Part shown: piece by piece, positions 18,561 through 52,608 of the stretch
Position numbering within the stretch: position 1 is the first letter of the stretch
Layout of the letters: each line of letters begins with the position of its first letter
Assembly: GCA_023665605.1 (NCBI GenBank)
Contig: JAMPDP010000002.1
Coordinates: 62,001-126,000 of the forward strand
Direction of reading: 5' to 3'
From: Candidatus Amulumruptor caecigallinarius
Lineage (GTDB): Bacteria; Bacteroidota; Bacteroidia; Bacteroidales; Muribaculaceae
DNA length: 64,000 nt
Notes under the pieces: model-generated
What the model saw: only the letters and a program-made list of their open reading frames with translations
Told to the model about the DNA's origin: nothing
The model's database searches: none
Program-made: the position numbers and the translations under genes

Positions 18561-20024
18561 ATGGAGAGCAACGAGAAGAAATCTAAGCGCCCCCGCATCA
18601 CAACAGCTCCCGGAGGCGTACCCGGGGAATACGCCGGGGAACACACCGAAAATACTTACGCACCCCGCACCGACCACTCTGCCGAGGGCACCGATGCACA
18701 GAGCGACGCTCAGGGAGGCTACCATCGCAACTATAACAGCCAGTACCGTCAAGGCGGCTATCAGCCCCGCCAGCAAGGTGGCTATCAGCAGCGCCAGGGC
18801 GGCTATCAGCAGCGTCAAGGCGGTTATCAGCCGCGTCAAGGCGGCTACCAGCCCCGTCAGCAAGGTGAGGGTGGCTACCAGCCCCGCCAGCAGGGTGGTT
18901 ATCAGCAGCGTCAGGGTGGCTACCAGCCTCGTCAGCAAGGCGAGGGCGGCTATCAACCTCGCCAGCAGGGTGGCTATCAGCAGCGTCAGAGCGGCTACCA
19001 GCCCCGTCAGCAGGGTGGCTATCAGCAGCGTCAGGGAGGCTACCAGCCCCGTCAGCAAGGCGAAGGCGGCTATCAGCCTCGCCAGCAGGGCGGCTATCAG
19101 CAGCGTCAGGGTGGCTACCAGCCCCGTCAGCAGCAGGGCGGTCAGCGTCCCTACGGCAACCGTCAACAGGGCGGTTATCAGCAGCGCGGGCCCCGCCAAA
19201 ACCAGCAGGGCATGCAGCGCAACCAGTTCGGCATGCCCCACGGCGGCAAGAGCTTCACTCCCCGCCCCAAGCGCATAGAGTATGAGGAGACTGTCGTTGA
19301 CCCCAACGAACCGATCCGCCTGAACAAGTACATGGCCAATGCCGGCATCTGCTCACGTCGCGAGGCTGACGAGTTCATCCAGCAGGGCCTCGTGAAGGTA
19401 AATGGCAACGTCGTTACCGAACTCGGCACCAAGATTACTCGCAACGACACCGTCGAGTATGACGAGAAGCTCGTCACCCTCGAGCGTAAGTGCTACATCC
19501 TCCTCAACAAGCCCAAGGATTGCGTCACCACAAGCGACGACCCCAACGGTCGTCTCACCGTCATGGACCTCGTCAAGGGTGCTTGCGACGAGCGCATTTA
19601 CCCAGTTGGTCGCCTTGACCGCAACACCACAGGCGTGCTCCTCCTCACCAACGACGGCGACCTCGCCTCGAAGCTAACTCACCCCAAGTACGTCAAGAAG
19701 AAGATATACCACGTATGGTGCGACAAGGATATCGCTGAGGATGATATGCAGCGCATCGCCGACGGCATCGAGCTTGACGACGGACCCATACACGCTGACG
19801 CCATCAGCTACGCAACTATGACCGACCGCAATCAGGCCGGCATCGAAATCCACTCAGGCCGCAACCGCGTGGTGCGCCGCATCTTCGAGAGCCTCGGCTA
19901 TCACGTCACCAAGCTTGACCGCGTTTATTTCGCAGGACTCACCAAGAAGAACCTCCCCCGCGGTCGCTGGCGTTACCTCACTCAGGAGGAGGTCAACTTC
20001 CTCAAGATGGGTTCTTTCGAATAA
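18561..20024 (+). CDS. RluB-family 23S rRNA pseudouridine synthase with long Gly/Tyr/Gln/Arg repeat N-terminus
   Basis: Converts specific uridines in rRNA to pseudouridine. Of the 487 aa, residues ~55-220 are a disordered repeat of GGYQPRQQ and GGYQQRQ units, coded by a tandem DNA repeat at about 18750-19190. The folded part follows: an S4 RNA-binding domain (RLNKYMANAGICSRREADEF) and the synthase domain with catalytic GRLDRNTTGVLLLTNDG (the Asp of GRLD). RluB/RsuA/RluF relatives share this; RluB is the best guess because of the S4 domain and length of the core. The repeat, rich in Arg, Tyr and Gln, resembles RNA-binding low-complexity tails. asnS follows after 21 bp. Confidence 0.93.
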   Translation: MESNEKKSKRPRITTAPGGVPGEYAGEHTENTYAPRTDHSAEGTDAQSDAQGGYHRNYNSQYRQGGYQPRQQGGYQQRQGGYQQRQGGYQPRQGGYQPRQQGEGGYQPRQQGGYQQRQGGYQPRQQGEGGYQPRQQGGYQQRQSGYQPRQQGGYQQRQGGYQPRQQGEGGYQPRQQGGYQQRQGGYQPRQQQGGQRPYGNRQQGGYQQRGPRQNQQGMQRNQFGMPHGGKSFTPRPKRIEYEETVVDPNEPIRLNKYMANAGICSRREADEFIQQGLVKVNGNVVTELGTKITRNDTVEYDEKLVTLERKCYILLNKPKDCVTTSDDPNGRLTVMDLVKGACDERIYPVGRLDRNTTGVLLLTNDGDLASKLTHPKYVKKKIYHVWCDKDIAEDDMQRIADGIELDDGPIHADAISYATMTDRNQAGIEIHSGRNRVVRRIFESLGYHVTKLDRVYFAGLTKKNLPRGRWRYLTQEEVNFLKMGSFE

Positions 20025-27694: not shown

Positions 27695-28000
27695 GTATAA
27701 AACTCACTGTTCCCTTAAATCACATAATAGGCGATTGCTTCCGTCAGCGAAAGAAAGTGTACCAAAACTTGAGTGTTCCAGACTTCTCACATAATAGGCG
27801 ATTGCTTCCGTCAGCGGAAGCCGCGTTAGCGGCGGGGTGTAAATAGCCTATGGCAAGGGAGGCACAGCCGACCGCAGCCATAGGTAACGCAAAGTCTGCC
27901 ATCTGTATAAACAATGCGCCGCGTAGCGCCGCAACCGCAATCATCCAAGGGCCGCGCATAAGCCCGGCCCAAAACTTTTGATACACTTTCCTATTTTACC
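27695..28000. repeat. MITE-like repeat C, copy 2
   Basis: 306-bp direct repeat of 26027-26334, in the same orientation. Differences are concentrated in the first ~100 bp (for example TCATTTTATAGG versus TCACATAATAGG). Its minus-strand open frame (27744-27986) is the same peptide with a longer C-terminus. The 116 bp between the aldolase start and this copy contain a GGGGGCCAATCCCCCC hairpin and no recognised promoter. Confidence 0.8.
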
Positions 28001-28430
28001 CGTAGCCCCGGAAGCCGAAGTGACAGCGCAAGCATCCGGGGCAAAAGCCACCCCCCCAAAAGGCGTCCGCAGGACGCCGATTTACCGTAGCCCCGGATGC
28101 CTGCGCTGTCGCCTCGGCATCCGGGGTCAAAGGCACCTCCCCCCAAAAGGCGTCCGCAGGACGCCGATTTACCCATAGCTCCGGAAGCCGGAGCGATAGC
28201 GTAGGCATCCGGGGTCAAAGGCGCCCCACCAAAAGGCGTCCGCAGGACGCCGATTTACCCATAGCCCCGGAAGCCGGAGCGACAGCGCAGGCATCCGGGG
28301 TCAACGGCATCCCACCAAAGGGCGTCCGCAGGACGCCGATTTACCGTAGCCCCGGAAGCCGGAGCGACAGCGCAGGCATCCGGGGTCAAAGGCGCCCCCC
28401 CCAAAAGGCGTCCGCAGGACGCCGATTTAC
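28001..28430. repeat. Two-hairpin interspersed repeat cluster 4 (five B-A units)
   Basis: Five tandem B-A units, period about 85 bp, each with CCCCGGAAGCC...GGCATCCGGGG then a spacer rich in C and A, then GGCGTCCGCAGGACGCC and GATTTAC. In the second unit (28086-28128) hairpin B is inverted relative to the others. The array ends with ACAACATCACCT, the same exit sequence as clusters 1 and 6. Not a CRISPR: spacers are related to one another and hairpins alternate. Confidence 0.9.
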
Positions 28431-28480
28431 AACATCACCTACGCCACCGGTAGGTGCCCCAACACCTTCTCCGCGGAGCT

Positions 28481-28733
28481 CGGGGTCGAACAGCAAGCGA
28501 GTTGAAGCCGCAGAGCGCCGGAGGCGCGTGGTTGTGAAGAAACCCCGGGTAGAGCGGAGGCCTGCAAGGCCGCAGCGGAGCCCGGGGTCGAACTGCAAGC
28601 GAGTTGAAGCCGCAGAGCGCCGGAGGCGCGTGGTTGTGAAGAAACCCCGGGTAGAGCGGAGGCCTGCAAGGCCGCAGCGGAGCCCGGGGTCAGGTGCTCC
28701 AAGGCAAAGATGCTTCGGAGAAGCGTCTTGTGG
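28481..28733. repeat. 102-bp tandem repeat D, two copies plus tail
   Basis: Two nearly identical 102-bp units begin at 28481 and 28583 (CGGGGTCGAACWGCAAGCGA ... GGAGCC), with internal inverted pieces such as GAGGCCTGCAAGGCCGC and GCGCCGGAGGCGC. A tail AAGATGCTTCGGAGAAGCGT follows. A diverged single copy with the same tail is at 31556-31662. Confidence 0.85.
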
Positions 28734-43764: not shown

Positions 43765-43838
43765 CGGAGCGTAGCGCAGCCCGGTAGCGCACCTGCTTTG
43801 GGAGCAGGGGGTCGCGAGTTCGAGTCTCGCCACTCCGA
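43765..43838 (+). tRNA. tRNA-Pro (UGG), likely ICE attachment site
   Basis: Full cloverleaf: acceptor CGGAGCG with CACTCCG, D arm GCGC/GCGC, anticodon arm CCTGC-TTTGGGA-GCAGG giving anticodon UGG, T arm GCGAG-TTCGAGT-CTCGC, discriminator A; no encoded CCA. The acceptor stem has one mismatch, C43770 against A43832. An integrase gene begins 309 bp downstream on the same strand, the usual arrangement of an element inserted at a tRNA 3' end, so the 3' part may be element-derived. Confidence 0.95.
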
Positions 43839-43856
43839 CTGTCTTAACAGCCCCAG

Positions 43857-44146: not shown

Positions 44147-45454
44147 ATGGCTTCCGTAACTCTCTATCTCGACAAGCGTAGCTCCGGCTGCGGGCCCTTG
44201 TCACTCAAGTGGCTTTTTTCACAGTCATGCCGTACTGCACTCCTCCCTACCGGCATCAAGCTTACTCCCTATCAGTGGGACGCGGTGAAGCGTCAGGTAA
44301 CGCGGCGCCACCCTGACCGAGACCTTATCAATCAGACGCTGACCGCCCGCATGGCTCAGATCAACCTTGTGCTGATGGAATGGGAGTCACGGGGCTACAT
44401 CCGCTCGATGACGGCAACGGACATCCGCCGCAACCTTGAGCCGCTGCTCCCTCCCATCATTCTGCCGGACGAGGAGGCGGTGGCCACGCTGAACTTCTCG
44501 CCTCTGACGATAGCCAATCCTCTCATGCCCGCCCCGGTGAGTGGCGGAATGGTACGCAAGACCCCTTTCTTGCGATGGTATGACCGTTTCGCGGCCACCA
44601 AGAGCGACAGGACAGCGGAGGTGTATGAACACACCCGGCGCAGGTTGCTGGCCTATCTCGGTGAGAAGAAGCTCCGGGCACTCGCCTTTGAGGACATCAC
44701 GCCCATGTGGCTCCGCGACTTTGACGCTTTCATGGCTCAGACGGCCCCATCGGCCAATGCACGGGCTATCCACATGAGGAACATCCGCACGGTATTCAAC
44801 GCGGCCATTGCCGAGGATGACATCACGTGCTATCCATTCCGCAAGTATCAGATAAAGACGGAACGGACGCGCAAACGGTCGCTGTCAATCAATGCGCTCC
44901 GGCAACTGTTCGAGTATCCCTGCGACGAGTACACGGCATATTACCGTGACATATTCAAGCTCATGTTCTTCTTCATCGGCATCAACCTCGTTGACCTCTG
45001 CAACCTCAAATCGGTCAGCCGGGATGGGCGCATCGAATACAAGCGGGCCAAGACCGGGCGCGAGTACTCTATCAAGGTAGAGCCTGAGGCGGCTGAGCTG
45101 CTTGAACGTCTGAAAGGAAAGGACTATCTCATAGACCCGCTTGACCGTTACAACAATCACCGGGACTTCAACCAGCACATCAATGATGCCCTGAAGAAGA
45201 TAGGCCCGGTGACCCGAAGCGGACGCGGCGGCAGGAAGGAGGTAAAGCCCCTGTTCCCGGAGCTTAGTACTTACTGGTCGCGCCACACATGGGCTACTAT
45301 AGCGGCAAGCCTTGACATCCCCAAGGAAACCATAGCTGCCGCTTTAGGGCACGGACGTACAAGCGTGACCGACATCTACATCGACTTTGACCAGACGAAG
45401 GTTGATGTCGCCAACCGTCGCGTCATTGACTGGGTACTCTACGGCAAGCGTTGA
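44147..45454 (+). CDS. int: Tyrosine recombinase (ICE integrase)
   Basis: Catalyses integration and excision of the element. The 435-aa protein has an N-terminal arm-binding region (MASVTLYLDKRSSG), a SAM-like core-binding domain (~145-240) and a catalytic domain with Lys in YKRAKTGREYS, Arg379-His380 in YWSRHTWAT, His402 in LGHG and nucleophile Tyr411 in VTDIYIDFD. The usual first catalytic Arg is replaced: FFIGINLVDL has Asn280 where GLR is expected, as seen in several Bacteroidota ICE integrases. ATG 44147 begins the family-typical N-terminus. The 3' end (DWVLYGKR) is echoed by a remnant near 47 kb. Confidence 0.95.
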   Translation: MASVTLYLDKRSSGCGPLSLKWLFSQSCRTALLPTGIKLTPYQWDAVKRQVTRRHPDRDLINQTLTARMAQINLVLMEWESRGYIRSMTATDIRRNLEPLLPPIILPDEEAVATLNFSPLTIANPLMPAPVSGGMVRKTPFLRWYDRFAATKSDRTAEVYEHTRRRLLAYLGEKKLRALAFEDITPMWLRDFDAFMAQTAPSANARAIHMRNIRTVFNAAIAEDDITCYPFRKYQIKTERTRKRSLSINALRQLFEYPCDEYTAYYRDIFKLMFFFIGINLVDLCNLKSVSRDGRIEYKRAKTGREYSIKVEPEAAELLERLKGKDYLIDPLDRYNNHRDFNQHINDALKKIGPVTRSGRGGRKEVKPLFPELSTYWSRHTWATIAASLDIPKETIAAALGHGRTSVTDIYIDFDQTKVDVANRRVIDWVLYGKR

Positions 45455-45514
45455 CTTCCCTCTTGCATATTTACCTCTGGCCGACTCTGATTCTTTCGGA
45501 GCCGGCCTTTTCGT
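45440..45514 (+). repeat. Direct repeat 1: int 3' end plus terminator
   Basis: Matches 47064-47138: a 26-bp identity (TACGGCAAGCGTTGACTTCC + CTCTTG), ~13 variable bases, then a 27-bp identity holding the terminator hairpin (GGCCGACTCTGA with TCGGAGCCGGCC) followed by TTTT. Confidence 0.85.
45479..45514 (+). terminator. int terminator
   Basis: 12-bp stem with one mismatch, TTCT loop, then TTTT; 24 bp after the int stop. Just beyond it is an inverted repeat ATATCACATTT (45518-45528) / AAATGTGATAT (45567-45577). Confidence 0.8.
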
Positions 45515-45646
45515 TACATATCACATTTATCACGAGTATACGGACGAAAGCACAATCACTGAGGGAAAATGTGATATTAGCCTTTTGTAGTGACCTTTTG
45601 CATTGCTGTAAGATATATATAATATCCATGAGACGGTTGCTACTTT

Positions 45647-45677: not shown

Positions 45678-45720
45678 CGTTGTCTAATTGTGGAACAAAT
45701 ACCACTTAATGACAATAAGC

Positions 45721-46974
45721 ATGATTATAAACAGAGATACATACTTGCGAAAACTTATTTCGCGCAGACATAATGGAATGATAAAAATTGTCACTGGTGT
45801 CCGACGATGTGGCAAATCATTTCTACTTTCTACCATCTACGCAAGCTGGCTCAGAGAGCAGGGTGTAGATGAAAGCCACATTATAACAATTGATTTGGAG
45901 GACAGGCGCAATAAGCAGTTGCGTGACCCGGATGTGCTGTTGGGGTATATAGACTCCAAGATAAAAGATAATTCTGTGCACTACATAATGATAGATGAAA
46001 TTCAGCATGTCCCGGAATTTGAGGATGTACTTAACAGCTATCTGAAAATGCCTAATGCTGATGTTTACGTAACTGGCAGCAATGCTAAATTCCTCTCTAA
46101 AGATATTATTACCACATTCCGTGGTCGTGGTGATGAGATAAAGTTGTTCCCACTGAGCTTCCGTGAGATATACCCTCACATGGATATGCTCAAGGACCGT
46201 GCCCTAACAACATATATGCTTTATGGAGGATTACCTCAGATACTCTTTGAGAACACAGATGAAGAAAAAAACGAATATCTTAAGGCCCTCTTCACCCACA
46301 CTTACCTAAAAGATATAGTGGAACGCTATCATATTCGCAATACAGAAATCCTCGATGAGTTGTTAAACATTCTTGCATCCGGGATTGGCTCCTTGACCAA
46401 TCCAACTAAACTTGTGAACACGTTTGAAAGCGTAAAGCATGAACGAGTTAACAGAATGACTCTTTCGTCATATCTTGATTATATCTGCGACTCATTCCTC
46501 ATAGAGAAAGCTACAAGGTATGATATTAAGGGAAAACGGTATATCGATAGCCCCTACAAATATTATTTTGTGGACTGTGGACTTAGAAATGCACGTCTAA
46601 ATTTTCGTCAAACAGAGCCGTCTCACCTAATGGAAAACGTCATCTATAATGAGATGCGAGTGCGAGGATACAATGTTGATGTTGGCGTCGTTCCAGTCAG
46701 AAAAAGGACTGTAGACGGGATTAACGCAAGAAGTCAATTGGAGGTTGATTTTGTATGCAATCTTGGCAGCAAGCGCTATTATATCCAGTCCGCGTATCGA
46801 ATGCCTGACGAAGAAAAGTTAAAACAGGAAGAAGCATCATTGGTGAATATTGATGATTCTTTTAAGAAAATCATAATAGTAGGGGAAGACATTCCTATCT
46901 TGCGCAATGAGGCCGGAATAATGACGATAGGTATTTACGATTTCTTATTGAATGACAACTCGTTGGATTTGTAA
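45721..46974 (+). CDS. AAA ATPase with DUF4143 domain, ICE cargo
   Basis: A 417-aa P-loop ATPase of the AAA_14 plus DUF4143 type. Walker A GVRRCGKS is at residues 26-33 and Walker B YIMIDEIQ at ~88-95; VTGSNAKFLS is a sensor-like strand; the C-terminal half (ARLNFRQTEPSHLMENVIYN and SQLEVDFVCNLG) is DUF4143 with a restriction-endonuclease-like acidic E-x-D pattern. Role of this family is not established. It is AT-rich against its neighbours and sits alone between intact int and a second, decayed int 3' end, so it entered separately. Start at 45721 (MIINRDTYL) is preferred; ATG 45709 is possible. Confidence 0.85.
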   Translation: MIINRDTYLRKLISRRHNGMIKIVTGVRRCGKSFLLSTIYASWLREQGVDESHIITIDLEDRRNKQLRDPDVLLGYIDSKIKDNSVHYIMIDEIQHVPEFEDVLNSYLKMPNADVYVTGSNAKFLSKDIITTFRGRGDEIKLFPLSFREIYPHMDMLKDRALTTYMLYGGLPQILFENTDEEKNEYLKALFTHTYLKDIVERYHIRNTEILDELLNILASGIGSLTNPTKLVNTFESVKHERVNRMTLSSYLDYICDSFLIEKATRYDIKGKRYIDSPYKYYFVDCGLRNARLNFRQTEPSHLMENVIYNEMRVRGYNVDVGVVPVRKRTVDGINARSQLEVDFVCNLGSKRYYIQSAYRMPDEEKLKQEEASLVNIDDSFKKIIIVGEDIPILRNEAGIMTIGIYDFLLNDNSLDL

Positions 46975-46999: not shown

Positions 47000-47077
47000 T
47001 GACAGAGCCCACCAAGGGTTGATATTACAAACCATCACAAGAAAGATTATTGACCGGGGGCTTTACGGCAAGCGTTG
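47000..47077 (+). pseudogene. Remnant of a second integrase gene 3' end
   Basis: Aligns with the last ~25 codons of int: GGTTGAT, AACCATCAC, ATTGACCGGGGGCTTTACGG correspond to GGTTGAT, AACCGTCGC, ATTGACTGGGTACTCTACGG at 45400-45440, with a ~6-nt insertion that shifts frame, and the same final codons (LYGKR stop). Differences at scattered bases show it is not a recent copy but a related integrase end left behind. Confidence 0.6.
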
Positions 47078-47138
47078 ACTTCCCTCTTGTGCACTCCCTC
47101 ACAGGCCGACTCTGATTCTTTCGGAGCCGGTCTTTTTC
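47064..47138 (+). repeat. Direct repeat 2: int end plus terminator
   Basis: Second copy of 45440-45514. The hairpin GGCCGACTCTGA/TCGGAGCCGGTC followed by TTTTT at 47104-47138 would stop transcription of the ATPase gene. Confidence 0.85.
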
Positions 47139-47140
47139 GC

Positions 47141-47660
47141 ACTTATCTCATATATCACTTATCTCACATATCTCACATATCTCTCATATCTCTCATATCT
47201 CTCATATCTCACTTAACACATATAACTCACATATCTCACATAACACACAAATCTCACTTATCTCACATATCTCACTTAATTCACTTATCTCACTTATCTC
47301 ACTTATCTCACTTATCTCATATATCTCATATATCTCACATATCTCATATATCTCACATATTTCACATATCTTACTTATCTCACTTATTTCACATATCTCA
47401 CATATCACACACATCTCACACATCTCATATATCTCATATATCTCACATATCTCACTTATCTCACTTATCTCACTTATCTCACTTATCTCATATATCTCAT
47501 ATATCTCACATATCTCATATATCTCACATATTTCACATATCTTACTTATCTCACTTATTTCACATATCTTACTTATCTCACTTATTTCACATATCTCACA
47601 TATCTCACACATCTCATATATCTCATATATCTCACATATCTCACTTATCTCACTTATCTA
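47141..47660. repeat. Array of about 58 nine-bp repeats (TCTCACWTA)
   Basis: Unit TCTCAYWTA, with variants TCTCACATA, TCTCATATA and TCTCACTTA, repeated for ~520 bp. A higher-order repeat of 171 bp (19 units) is visible: TTCACATATCTTACTTATCT starts at 47361 and again at 47532. One strand is almost pure pyrimidine at two of three positions. Being a multiple of 3, it leaves long open frames on both strands, so these are not evidence of coding. It lies between the int remnant and the putative oriT. Confidence 0.95.
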
Positions 47661-47714
47661 TTGAAGTTTTGATAATCAGCACCTTATTGGTAATTGATGT
47701 TTTTAATGTGTCAT

Positions 47715-47748
47715 TTTGAGGGTCAAGGAGTGTTTTACGGTACCTTTG
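47715..47748 (+). promoter_or_regulatory. mob promoter (shared ICE promoter type, P1)
   Basis: TAATGTGTCATTTTGA contains TTTG at 47715-47718, then 22 nt, then TACCTTTG at 47741-47748. Same extended upstream sequence and same 22-nt spacing as P2 and P3. Confidence 0.65.
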
Positions 47749-47755
47749 TGGAAAA

Positions 47756-47873
47756 AACAGCCGCAGGCGAAATAGCAAGTAGTACTTTTGTCCGCACACG
47801 CGGCCAAAAGTCACTTGCCGCCCCTGTCAGGGCGGGAAACAGCCCCTGCGGGTCTGTTTGAATATAGTAAGGT
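47756..47873. other. Putative oriT region upstream of the mob genes
   Basis: A 118-bp non-coding stretch before the relaxosome gene with dense symmetry: GCAAGTAGTACTTTTG (47775-47790) against CAAAAGTCACTTGC (47805-47818), equal but for a 2-nt bulge; CCCTGTCAGGG; and CCGCAGG (47761) against CCTGCGG. Position directly before mobC-like and relaxase genes is where Bacteroidales elements carry oriT. The nick site is not identified. Confidence 0.55.
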
Positions 47874-48260
47874 ATGGAAAAGAGAACCAAGCGACTTTGG
47901 ATCCGTGTCAGCGAGGCTGACATGACCCTCTATAAGCGCAAAGCCGAGTCATTCGGAAGCGTCAGCGACATGGTGCGCACTGCCGTGACGCGGCTTAACG
48001 AGCCATCGGTGGCCGAGCGTATGCGCCGCGTCGACGAGCTGATGAAGCTATGCCGGGAAATTGACAACCGTCTTTCATGGGAGGGGAGCAATATCAACCA
48101 GCTTGCACGGCGAGCCAATGAAGCTCACCGGGCAGGTGTCATACCCGGAACTTTCTTCACCGAGGTGCTGATGCCGGAGCTGAGAAATGTGAGAAATGAC
48201 ATATATCTCACAAAAGTCACACTTGAGAGTATTCTCACAAAAGTAATCCGTGACAGATAA
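47874..48260 (+). CDS. MobC-like relaxosome accessory protein
   Basis: A 128-aa DNA-binding helper that brings the relaxase to oriT (called MobA in some Bacteroides elements). The N-terminus (KRTKRLWIRVSEADMTLY) looks like a ribbon-helix-helix, and GSNINQLARRANEAHRAG is the hallmark of the MobC family. The stop is 2 bp before the relaxase start. Confidence 0.85.
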   Translation: MEKRTKRLWIRVSEADMTLYKRKAESFGSVSDMVRTAVTRLNEPSVAERMRRVDELMKLCREIDNRLSWEGSNINQLARRANEAHRAGVIPGTFFTEVLMPELRNVRNDIYLTKVTLESILTKVIRDR

Positions 48261-48262
48261 CT

Positions 48263-49606
48263 ATGATAGTAACGATGCTTCCCAAGAGCGCAAACTTCCA
48301 TGCTGTGCTTTATAATGAGCGCAAGGTGGCCGAGGGTGTGGCGACGTTGCTTGTGAAAGATAACATCTCCGGAGCGGCAGCTTTCAATGACTACACCCCT
48401 GAGGAAATGCGTCAGTTTTTCATGGACTACTCCTCGCGCAACTCGCGGATTAAATTCCCGCAGTTTCATGTAGCGATTTCGTGCAAGGGGCATGAATACT
48501 CCGAGGAACAGCTTGTGGGACTTGCTCACCGCTGGCTTGCCAAGATGGGTTATGCTGACCAAGGCCAACCACTTCTTATCTATGGTCACCATGACACAGA
48601 CAATACTCACATCCACATCATAACGTCAAGGGTGAACCCGCAAGGGAAAAAGATTGACCATAACCATGAATGGCGGCGAAGTCAGTCCATACTTGACTCC
48701 CTTATGGGCATTGATGACAAAAAGGCTGTTGAAGATGACATAGAAACGGCCCGTGGGTATACTTTTAACGACATCGGGGGCTTCCAGTCCATCATGCAGA
48801 GCCTCGGATATGAGTGTTACTTCAAGGCCGCTACCGGCAAGATCTACATCAAGAAGGGCGGGGCCATTAAGAAAGCCCTCGACCAAAGCGAGGTAGAGAG
48901 TTGGTTCAGGAAACACACACATCCGTTTAACGATGATAACCGTACAAAGGAACTTATACGTCGCCGAAGTCAGCTATACGGCATCATTAAGAGATACATG
49001 CGTTCATGCAGCTCCCTCAAGGAGTTTGCGGAAAGCATGAAGAAAGGATTTGGCATTGACCTTGTGTTTTACGGCAGCAAAGATAGCCCCACCGATTACC
49101 GTATAGTCGACCATAGCCAAAAAGCCGTTCACTATGCCGTGGTGGATATATACAAGTTCACATTTCAAACAGTGGAAGAGAGACTGAACGGGGCCAAAGA
49201 AACAATCTCACGTCTCCTGGCCGAAAACCCGGAGGCGACTACCCGCGAGGTCAACAAGACCCTGATGCGCGAATGGCATGCCTATATTAAGGAGGGAAAC
49301 ATTGTCATAGGCCATAATAAATATGCTCTCGATGACGCAGTCACTGCCGTCCTCAAGAACAACAACCGGGAAGCATATCGGCGGGAGAACCCGACATCCC
49401 GGAGCGAACATCCATCTTTCTCTTCACACAATATATCGAGAACGTCTTTCAATAAATCAACACCCTCCACAACTCACGAGCCTTCATCTCACATCAGAAG
49501 CTCCAATGCTCAAGGCGCACCCACCGTCAGCCGCGAACATGAAGTAGGCACCGGTGTCAACTCCGATGACCTCGATGAGCAGATGAAGCAGCGGCTGAAA
49601 TTATGA
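48263..49606 (+). CDS. mobB: MOBP-type relaxase
   Basis: Nicks oriT and leads the strand into the recipient. The 447-aa protein carries the relaxase domain in its first ~160 residues: Tyr17 in HAVLYNERKVAEG as the likely nucleophile, and the metal-binding HHDTDNTHIHI at 109-119. Residues ~190-310 follow with KGFGIDLVFYGSKDSP, a segment common in Bacteroidales relaxases; the C-terminus is Ser/Thr-rich and disordered. Promoter P2 overlaps its stop. Confidence 0.92.
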   Translation: MIVTMLPKSANFHAVLYNERKVAEGVATLLVKDNISGAAAFNDYTPEEMRQFFMDYSSRNSRIKFPQFHVAISCKGHEYSEEQLVGLAHRWLAKMGYADQGQPLLIYGHHDTDNTHIHIITSRVNPQGKKIDHNHEWRRSQSILDSLMGIDDKKAVEDDIETARGYTFNDIGGFQSIMQSLGYECYFKAATGKIYIKKGGAIKKALDQSEVESWFRKHTHPFNDDNRTKELIRRRSQLYGIIKRYMRSCSSLKEFAESMKKGFGIDLVFYGSKDSPTDYRIVDHSQKAVHYAVVDIYKFTFQTVEERLNGAKETISRLLAENPEATTREVNKTLMREWHAYIKEGNIVIGHNKYALDDAVTAVLKNNNREAYRRENPTSRSEHPSFSSHNISRTSFNKSTPSTTHEPSSHIRSSNAQGAPTVSREHEVGTGVNSDDLDEQMKQRLKL

Positions 49607-49614
49607 TGTGTCAT

Positions 49615-49648
49615 TTTGACCCTCATTGTTCCAATCAGATTATCTTTG
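49615..49648 (+). promoter_or_regulatory. Shared ICE promoter type, P2
   Basis: TGATGTGTCATTTTGA with TTTG at 49615-49618, 22 nt, TATCTTTG at 49641-49648; drives the lipoprotein gene. Confidence 0.65.
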
Positions 49649-49683
49649 CAATATCAACCATCAATAATCAATCATCTTTCATT

Positions 49684-50274: not shown

Positions 50275-50419
50275 GACATACAATTGACCCCGGCACTTGT
50301 ACTGATTGAGGCGGCATCACACGTGCTGCCTCATTTTTTATACTCCTAAATATACTCTGTCACCCTCTGAGAGTGTTGTGAGGTCTATTTGGTTGAGTAG
50401 ACAAATTATAATGTTTCAC

Positions 50420-50453
50420 TTTGAAAATGGCATTGGTCTGCGCTTTACCTTTG
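50420..50453 (+). promoter_or_regulatory. tra promoter (shared ICE promoter type, P3)
   Basis: TAATGTTTCACTTTGA with TTTG at 50420-50423, 22 nt, TACCTTTG at 50446-50453; 41 bp before traA. Confidence 0.65.
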
Positions 50454-50493
50454 CGTCGATACGAACATTTACCCATCTATCATCACCTCTGTT

Positions 50494-52094: not shown

Positions 52095-52123
52095 CACTGC
52101 AACATTATGTGAAAGAACTTACT

Positions 52124-52224
52124 GCTACTACCAACACCTGCCTATACTAACATTTCGCTTATACCAACACACTGCTTATACCAACCCAGTGCTTATACCA
52201 ACATATTGCTACTACCAACACCCT
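52124..52224. repeat. Six tandem 17-bp repeats before traE
   Basis: Units of GCTTATACCAACAnnnT type (variants GCTACTACCAACACCCT, GCTTATACCAACCCAGT, GCCTATACTAACATTTC) fill 101 bp of the 163-bp gap between the small membrane gene and traE. Five are 17 bp and the first 16 bp. Likely protein-binding or RNA-level control of the transfer operon. Confidence 0.85.
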
Positions 52225-52257: not shown

Positions 52258-52608
52258 ATGAATATTCGGAAAAAGATACTGCGCACCGCAGTGCGCGCCA
52301 AGAACAGCAATCTTGGCCATAAGGCTCTCCTTTTTGGAGTGGCTCTTGTACTTGCCCAGTCATCCATGGCTCAAAGTGCCGGAGCCGCAGGGTTCACTCA
52401 GGCCACCACCGAATTTCAGAAGTACAAGGACCCTGTGCAGAAGCTCCTTTACGCCATCGCGGCTGTAATCAGCCTTGTAGGCGCATTCAACATCTACTTC
52501 AAGATGCAGAACGGCGACCAGGATGTGAAGAAGACCATCATGATGACCGTGGGCGGTTGCGTGGCCTTCGTAGCTGCTGCTTCGGCTCTCCCCGCTTTCT
52601 TCAATTGA
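52258..52608 (+). CDS. traE: TraE, DUF4134 (VirB2-like pilin)
   Basis: A 116-aa small membrane protein: basic N-terminus, hydrophobic leader LFGVALVLAQSSMAQSA, and two helices (LLYAIAAVISLVGAFNIYF and TVGGCVAFVAAASALPAFF). Matches DUF4134, taken as the pilin-like subunit of the mating channel. First of the traE-F-G block. Confidence 0.88.
   Translation: MNIRKKILRTAVRAKNSNLGHKALLFGVALVLAQSSMAQSAGAAGFTQATTEFQKYKDPVQKLLYAIAAVISLVGAFNIYFKMQNGDQDVKKTIMMTVGGCVAFVAAASALPAFFN

Follow-up and report, generated by a model that had tools for sequence, protein, structure and literature searches.

A G-free array of 9-bp repeats, kept between the integrase and the putative oriT of two Muribaculaceae ICEs, probably serves a DNA-binding protein as a landing strip

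What is the role of a 520-bp array of 9-bp repeats that stands directly in front of the transfer genes of a mobile element? We addressed this question in a stretch of 64,000 nucleotides (hereafter the window) from a Muribaculaceae genome that resembles Amulumruptor; the stretch holds an ICE inserted in tRNA-Pro(TGG). An integrase, a relaxase and a conjugation ATPase occur together in this one element at the tRNA gene, and the last of these is a TraG family conjugative transposon ATPase that scored above the cut-off. The order is int, an ATPase gene, the array, a promoter-like site, an oriT-like inverted repeat, mobC, the relaxase gene, ParA and the conjugation genes (Table 1). The initial annotation had placed the array between int and the oriT/mob region, and our analysis supports this location and the annotated neighbours, which are a tyrosine integrase, an AAA_14/DUF4143 ATPase, a MobC-like protein and a MobA/VirD2 relaxase, together with an oriT-like inverted repeat. 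The right end of the ICE (attR) was not located, and the contig ends; a search against Rfam gave no match except the tRNA. The site between the array and oriT is read as promoter-like against the Bacteroidetes-type promoter consensus. Further promoter-like sites at 49603-49660 and 50400-50460 share the TGTNTCA(T/C)TTTG context that is found before mobC (47706), which is possibly a common regulator motif of the ICE operons. The AGCAAGT/ACTTGC repeat of the putative oriT recurs before mobC in related ICEs.

Table 1. Features around the 9-bp array (positions of the window; the G007 ICE is the close relative described in the text)
Feature	Position	Strand	Remarks
tRNA-Pro(TGG), insertion target	43765..43839	+	G007 ICE also adjoins tRNA-Pro(TGG)
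Tyrosine integrase	44147..45454	+	Arm-binding, SAM-like and catalytic domains
Duplicated int 3' end with terminator-like hairpin and about two array units	45425..45533	+	Remnant ACATATCACATTTATCAC
AAA_14/DUF4143 ATPase gene	45709..46974	+	Between int and array; not in G007 ICE
Duplicated segment, second copy	47049..47158	+	Main array begins with its final units
Terminator-like hairpin with T tract	47110..47137	+	Immediately before array
9-bp array	47141..47660	+	57 units, consensus TCTCA(C/T)(A/T)TA, without G, 171-bp higher-order repeat
117-bp block, first copy	47288..47404	+	Recurs at +171 (47459-47575), 115/117 identical
Bacteroidetes-type promoter-like sequence (TTTG-N-TAccTTTG)	47715..47748	+	Between array and oriT; counterpart at L048:5105 in G007 ICE
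Putative oriT inverted repeat AGCAAGTAGTACTTTTGTCCGCACACGCGGCCAAAAGTCACTTGC	47774..47818	+	42/45 identical in G007 ICE
mobC, ribbon-helix-helix NikA-like auxiliary relaxosome protein	47874..48260	+	Candidate array binder
MobA/VirD2-type relaxase	48263..49606	+	

Tandem Repeats Finder called the array at 47149-47659 with a period of 9, 56.8 copies and 86% matches. The two-unit pattern (TCTCAYWTA)2, allowing up to three mismatches, has 63 matches in the window where 0.34 are expected by chance, and 61 of them fall inside the array. The most frequent units are TCTCACTTA (15 of 57), TCTCACATA (12) and TCTCATATA (10), and the rest are minor variants. Identity at an offset of 171 is 0.865, with an exact run of 118 bp, and the higher-order period is a genuine block duplication; the annotated 520 bp, about 58 units and 171-bp period were therefore confirmed, with a recount of 57 units and a block identity of 115/117. 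The + strand holds no G in 520 nt and 30% C, and the array coincides with a G-free run of 523 nt (47140-47662) that far exceeds any other in the window, the next longest being 61 nt. Folding predicts an unfolded + strand RNA, with a minimum free energy (MFE) of -2.5 kcal/mol over 520 nt versus -67 for the - strand. Protein-coding repeats were considered and rejected, as the open frames on both strands are explained by unit composition alone. The initial annotation did not mention that one strand lacks G altogether, nor did it include two further sets of repeats that are treated below, a 17-bp repeat array elsewhere in this ICE and the 12-bp arrays that lie 3' of related integrases. Outside the ICE, the window also carries long GC-rich tandem repeats at 27995-28691 (an 86-bp unit in 5.1 copies and a 102-bp unit in 2.1) and 21/75/120-bp tandem repeats at 18747-19141, which are probably coding and rich in G/Y/Q/R.

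Among 397 family genomes, the exact three-unit pattern was found in two, the source genome and G007 (Candidatus Amulumruptor caecigallinarius, CALUMU010000019.1), which is the sole other genome of the genus in this set. The exact repeat is thus confined to one genus-level lineage of these 397 genomes and is known from two elements only, both in draft assemblies; matches to the 9-bp pattern in viral contigs were coding or low-complexity repeats and were set aside. The G007 ICE has the order int, 28 bp, a 33-unit 9-bp array, promoter-like site, oriT, mobC and relaxase; it lacks the ATPase gene, and no hairpin is evident between the int stop and the array. Absence of the array from all related ICEs, which the initial annotation had named as the finding that would speak against it, is therefore not what we observed, since this one close relative carries it. 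The G007 units are TCTCACATA (16), TTACACATA (13) and TCCCACATA (4), and the distance from the end of the array to oriT is 129 bp there and 114 bp in the window ICE. The integrases of the two ICEs are 63% identical and the relaxases 55%, and at fourfold-degenerate sites of the genes common to both, 62 of 243 positions (25.5%) are identical, which is the random level and indicates saturation. Nevertheless, the two ICEs agree at 9/9 positions of the unit TCTCACATA, and the chance that a random 9-mer would match in any rotation or on either strand is ~1e-4. The G007 array also has no G in its 302 nt, and none of the ~11 distinct substitutions among units yields G, where one third would be expected (p ~0.01, an estimate). 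Because the unit is identical at saturated divergence and neither array contains G, these comparisons argue that the unit is under selection.

This result bears directly on the reading that the array is a neutral minisatellite, grown by slippage or unequal crossing over and functionless. Such a history would account for the 171-bp block duplication as a recent expansion and for the difference in copy number between the ICEs (57 versus 33), but a neutral array would drift to another unit at saturating divergence, and both arrays have kept their position and their lack of G. We consider it improbable, and no other reading agrees less well with the saturation result. The array alone may also have been exchanged recently between the two ICEs, although the variant sets of the two arrays differ.

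The comparison with G007 also helps to order the events at this locus. A trace of the array pattern at ~45516, already noticed in the initial annotation, is real and is explained by a 110-bp duplication with 81% identity (45425-45533 versus 47049-47158), the two copies of which bracket the ATPase gene. The duplication marks the gene as a later insertion, and the array of the G007 ICE stands straight after int without any ATPase. This arrangement indicates that the array predates the ATPase insertion, as had been proposed.

If the unit is maintained by selection, what does it do? The array probably serves a DNA-binding protein as a landing strip, and this protein most likely controls transfer; the earlier suggestion of protein-binding (iteron-like) sites stands as a leading reading in which the binding itself is predicted from sequence. 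Our tentative preference is for contiguous sites of an element-encoded protein, most likely MobC, that would form a filament gating the mob promoter and oriT. In the MobC family, 20 of 20 alignment members matched the NikA-like Pfam family (best 1.7e-11) and 10 of 20 the MobC Pfam family, while the window MobC itself falls below both curated cut-offs. Profile matches to the PDB entries 2kke and NikA 2ba3, RHH structures that are among the top-ranking matches, are weak and lie on the ribbon-helix-helix (RHH) part, and a Foldseek search with the monomer model was uninformative. The motif LSWEGSNINQ fits LxxxGxNxNQ and matches the motif of RA3 MobC, so that the protein combines the RHH N-terminus and the motif that characterize MobC/NikA-type auxiliary proteins. 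On this evidence we place MobC with the ribbon-helix-helix proteins of the NikA/MobC type.

Proteins of this fold are known to line up on short repeats. One dimer of the RHH protein omega of pSM19035 binds each 7-bp repeat, at least four contiguous repeats are needed, and the sites overlap promoters (PMC9499535), while the RHH protein MobC of RA3 stimulates transfer and keeps its own promoter repressed (PMC4175270). The two arrays, with 57 and 33 units, have the form of RHH tandem operator or parS repeats, which are contiguous, 7-9 bp long and present in at least four copies. Because RHH proteins line up on contiguous short repeats and RA3 MobC is autoregulatory, we propose a filament of MobC, or of another protein of the element, over the array. 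A subunit pair of the element-encoded protein, most likely MobC (encoded 214 bp downstream), would occupy each 9-bp unit, and neighbouring bound pairs would cooperate, so that a nucleoprotein filament over some 30-60 sites could reach the mob promoter and oriT. The filament would keep the mobC-relaxase promoter repressed or gated and would concentrate the relaxosome protein at oriT, with nicking taking place only after excision or a signal. We infer each of these steps, namely that a protein binds the array, that this protein is MobC, and that transcription and transfer are affected. The conservation of the unit, the kept spacing to oriT, the period-8 arrays that related ICEs have at this position (see below), the non-coding nature of the array and its unfolded + strand RNA count for this reading. 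Against it, nine of the 15 pre-mobC regions of related ICEs have no significant period; MobC should also bind oriT, yet oriT does not contain the unit; a double-stranded binding site does not require the absence of G from one strand; and period-12 arrays follow related integrases in prophages, where they lie against a tail gene.

To place the array in a wider context, we can compare the region before mobC in ICEs whose relaxases are 41-46% identical and whose integrases are mostly different. The 9-bp repeat is absent from these ICEs, in which the 400-560 bp before mobC adjoins the conserved oriT repeat AGCAAGTTGTRCTTTT...AAAAGYNACTTGCC. Very degenerate periodic arrays (z at least 3) precede oriT-mobC in 6 of 15 distinct regions, all with a period of 8, and the other 9 of the 15 have no significant period. 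Among chromosomal intergenic controls, period 8 occurred in 1/60 and any period in 6/60, which gives p ~2e-4 for the enrichment of period 8 (6/15 vs 1/60), with the class statistics resting on related sequences that were partly de-replicated by shared 11-mers.

A second class of arrays lies on the other side, 3' of integrases. Integrases of the same clade are mostly found in Muribaculaceae prophages in which int converges on tail genes, and here 47 of 73 distinct loci have periodic DNA 3' of int, 36 of them with period 12, versus 6/60 and 0/60 of the chromosomal intergenic controls. These degenerate 12-bp-period arrays (L123-L221, ~70 distinct loci) belong to tRNA-inserted prophages and some ICEs. 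None of them is coding; the units vary by element, with GTGTACCCATAA, GGTGCCTTTTGT and GCGCTTCCTTTT among them, and as RNA their structure is weak (mean z -0.8 sense, -0.5 antisense). Selection on the 12-bp cores among close homologues is borderline (p 0.04, from comparisons that are not independent). The Bacteroides phages BS-TP2 and F4, which have related integrases, carry no array, and the integrase alignment retrieved no relative when IMG/VR was scanned. Upstream of int, L095 and L123-L161 have two to four 12-bp-spaced direct repeats whose similarity tracks the arm-binding domain of Int (uncorrected p ~0.02-0.04, de-replicated data); these are probable arm-type sites. In two pairs of prophages (L147/L148 and L137/L150), the post-int arrays are identical or nearly so, while the integrases are 67-71% identical and the tRNA targets differ; int modules seem to have been swapped between prophages with a breakpoint near the array.

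As the window array stands right after int, it may belong to this period-12 integrase class. It would then be a 9-bp version of the 12-bp arrays, binding Int, a directionality factor or another element protein and controlling int expression or excision. The frequency of period-12 DNA after int speaks for this, as do the arrays of prophages that have no oriT, the ICE L224, in which a 12-bp array follows int and the mobC-upstream region has none, and the start of the G007 array only 28 bp after the int stop. However, the period and the unit differ (9 versus 12), and the window and G007 integrases pair with array-less ones in the int tree, with weak support. Co-variation of array units with any Int domain is not robust: an initial peak for the 12-bp units at residues 176-251 went from a corrected p of 0.05 to 0.6 once near-duplicates were removed, and the downstream-array signal at Int residues 196-225 is likewise not significant without near-duplicates, so we do not claim co-evolution. 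The upstream repeats do track the arm domain. The idea that the array consists of the same sites as the int-upstream repeats was rejected, as the own-versus-other ranking came out close to chance, with a mean rank p of 0.43 when one unit was used and of 0.37 with two units. We regard an integrase-module function as unlikely, though not negligible. Lying between int and the mob promoter/oriT, the array fits both classes by position; its period of 9 departs from the post-integrase class and is close to 8, and we lean towards assigning it to the oriT class.

The composition of the array raises the possibility that it acts as RNA. It would then be a G-free, C-rich and unstructured 520-nt 3' UTR of int, on which Rho loads and which shields mob from transcription that starts at int. 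Rho sites have more C than G, are unstructured, span 70-80 nt or more and have regularly spaced C (PMC6407284). The array has the published composition of such sites and is a candidate for one, and the lack of any substitution to G, the unfolded + strand transcript and the position of the G007 array directly after int are in line with this reading. On the other hand, a terminator-like hairpin already precedes the window array, Rho would do with a far shorter stretch, and it has no need of an exact 9-mer. The 12-bp arrays show no C>G bias (19 versus 17), G being conserved in them along with C, and a Rho site was rejected as their general function. Overall, we think it rather improbable that the array serves Rho.

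Finally, the array could be an iteron or centromere, that is, an origin or parS-like site of the excised ICE working with the ParA-type ATPase that the ICE encodes, and in pSM19035 an RHH ParB on contiguous repeats indeed forms parS (PMC9499535). However, no Rep-type family was recognised among the neighbouring genes scanned, ParA relatives also occur in array-free ICEs, and a 17-bp array upstream of a tra gene is an equally good iteron candidate; we therefore hold out little expectation for this reading. The latter array consists of about five 17-bp direct repeats (GCTTATACCAACACANT, 52116-52224) a short way upstream of a gene at 52258 for a small conjugation protein, and the matching site of the G007 ICE (L048:9306-9407) has 17-bp direct repeats GCTTTAATAACACAGTA. 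Several related ICEs (L050, L052, L053, L063, L064 and L066) have 18-19 bp repeats at this position. The 17-bp array is a candidate operator or iteron.

A 9-bp unit that stays frozen over 300-520 bp amid neutral turnover points strongly to a cis-element that has not been described, with a suggested role in the control of ICE transfer or excision. If MobC or another element protein coats the array, relaxosome assembly would be linked to mob transcription. It is intriguing to consider, though we find it doubtful, that Muribaculaceae mobile elements share a general undescribed device in which long arrays of very short sites are coated by filaments of co-diversifying element proteins and gate excision and transfer; the sites would be specific to each element and evenly spaced, every 8-9 bp before oriT in ICEs and every 12 bp on the 3' side of int in prophages and ICEs. 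Period 8 before oriT and period 12 after int offer a simple computational handle for finding, in gut Bacteroidales, elements of this kind and the proteins that belong to them.

The open literature that we searched holds no description of such arrays, which is no proof of novelty, and none of a long array for MobC/NikA-type proteins. Plasmid iterons are also tandem direct repeats, but they are usually 17-22 bp long and lie beside a Rep gene, none of which was recognised here. Rho utilization sites share the C-rich, G-poor and unstructured transcript, while an exact 9-bp repeat over 520 nt exceeds their need. The MetJ met boxes, in which one RHH dimer binds each contiguous ~8-bp repeat, come near the 8- and 9-bp periods, but occur in 2-5 copies at chromosomal biosynthesis genes. 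As for RA3 MobC, R64 NikA and pLS20 Aux1/Aux2, mobC adjoins oriT and the relaxase gene and its product has an RHH/NikA-like profile, whereas those proteins bind one or few sites at oriT or their own promoter, a single imperfect palindrome in the case of RA3 MobC. The parS heptads of pSM19035 bound by omega resemble the array in that short direct repeats follow one another without gaps next to promoters, and in that genes for an RHH protein and a ParA ATPase lie close by; they comprise 7-10 copies of 7-bp units in partly mixed orientation, while the arrays described here, presumed to be protein-bound, comprise 33-57 copies of 9-bp units in one orientation beside the oriT of an ICE.
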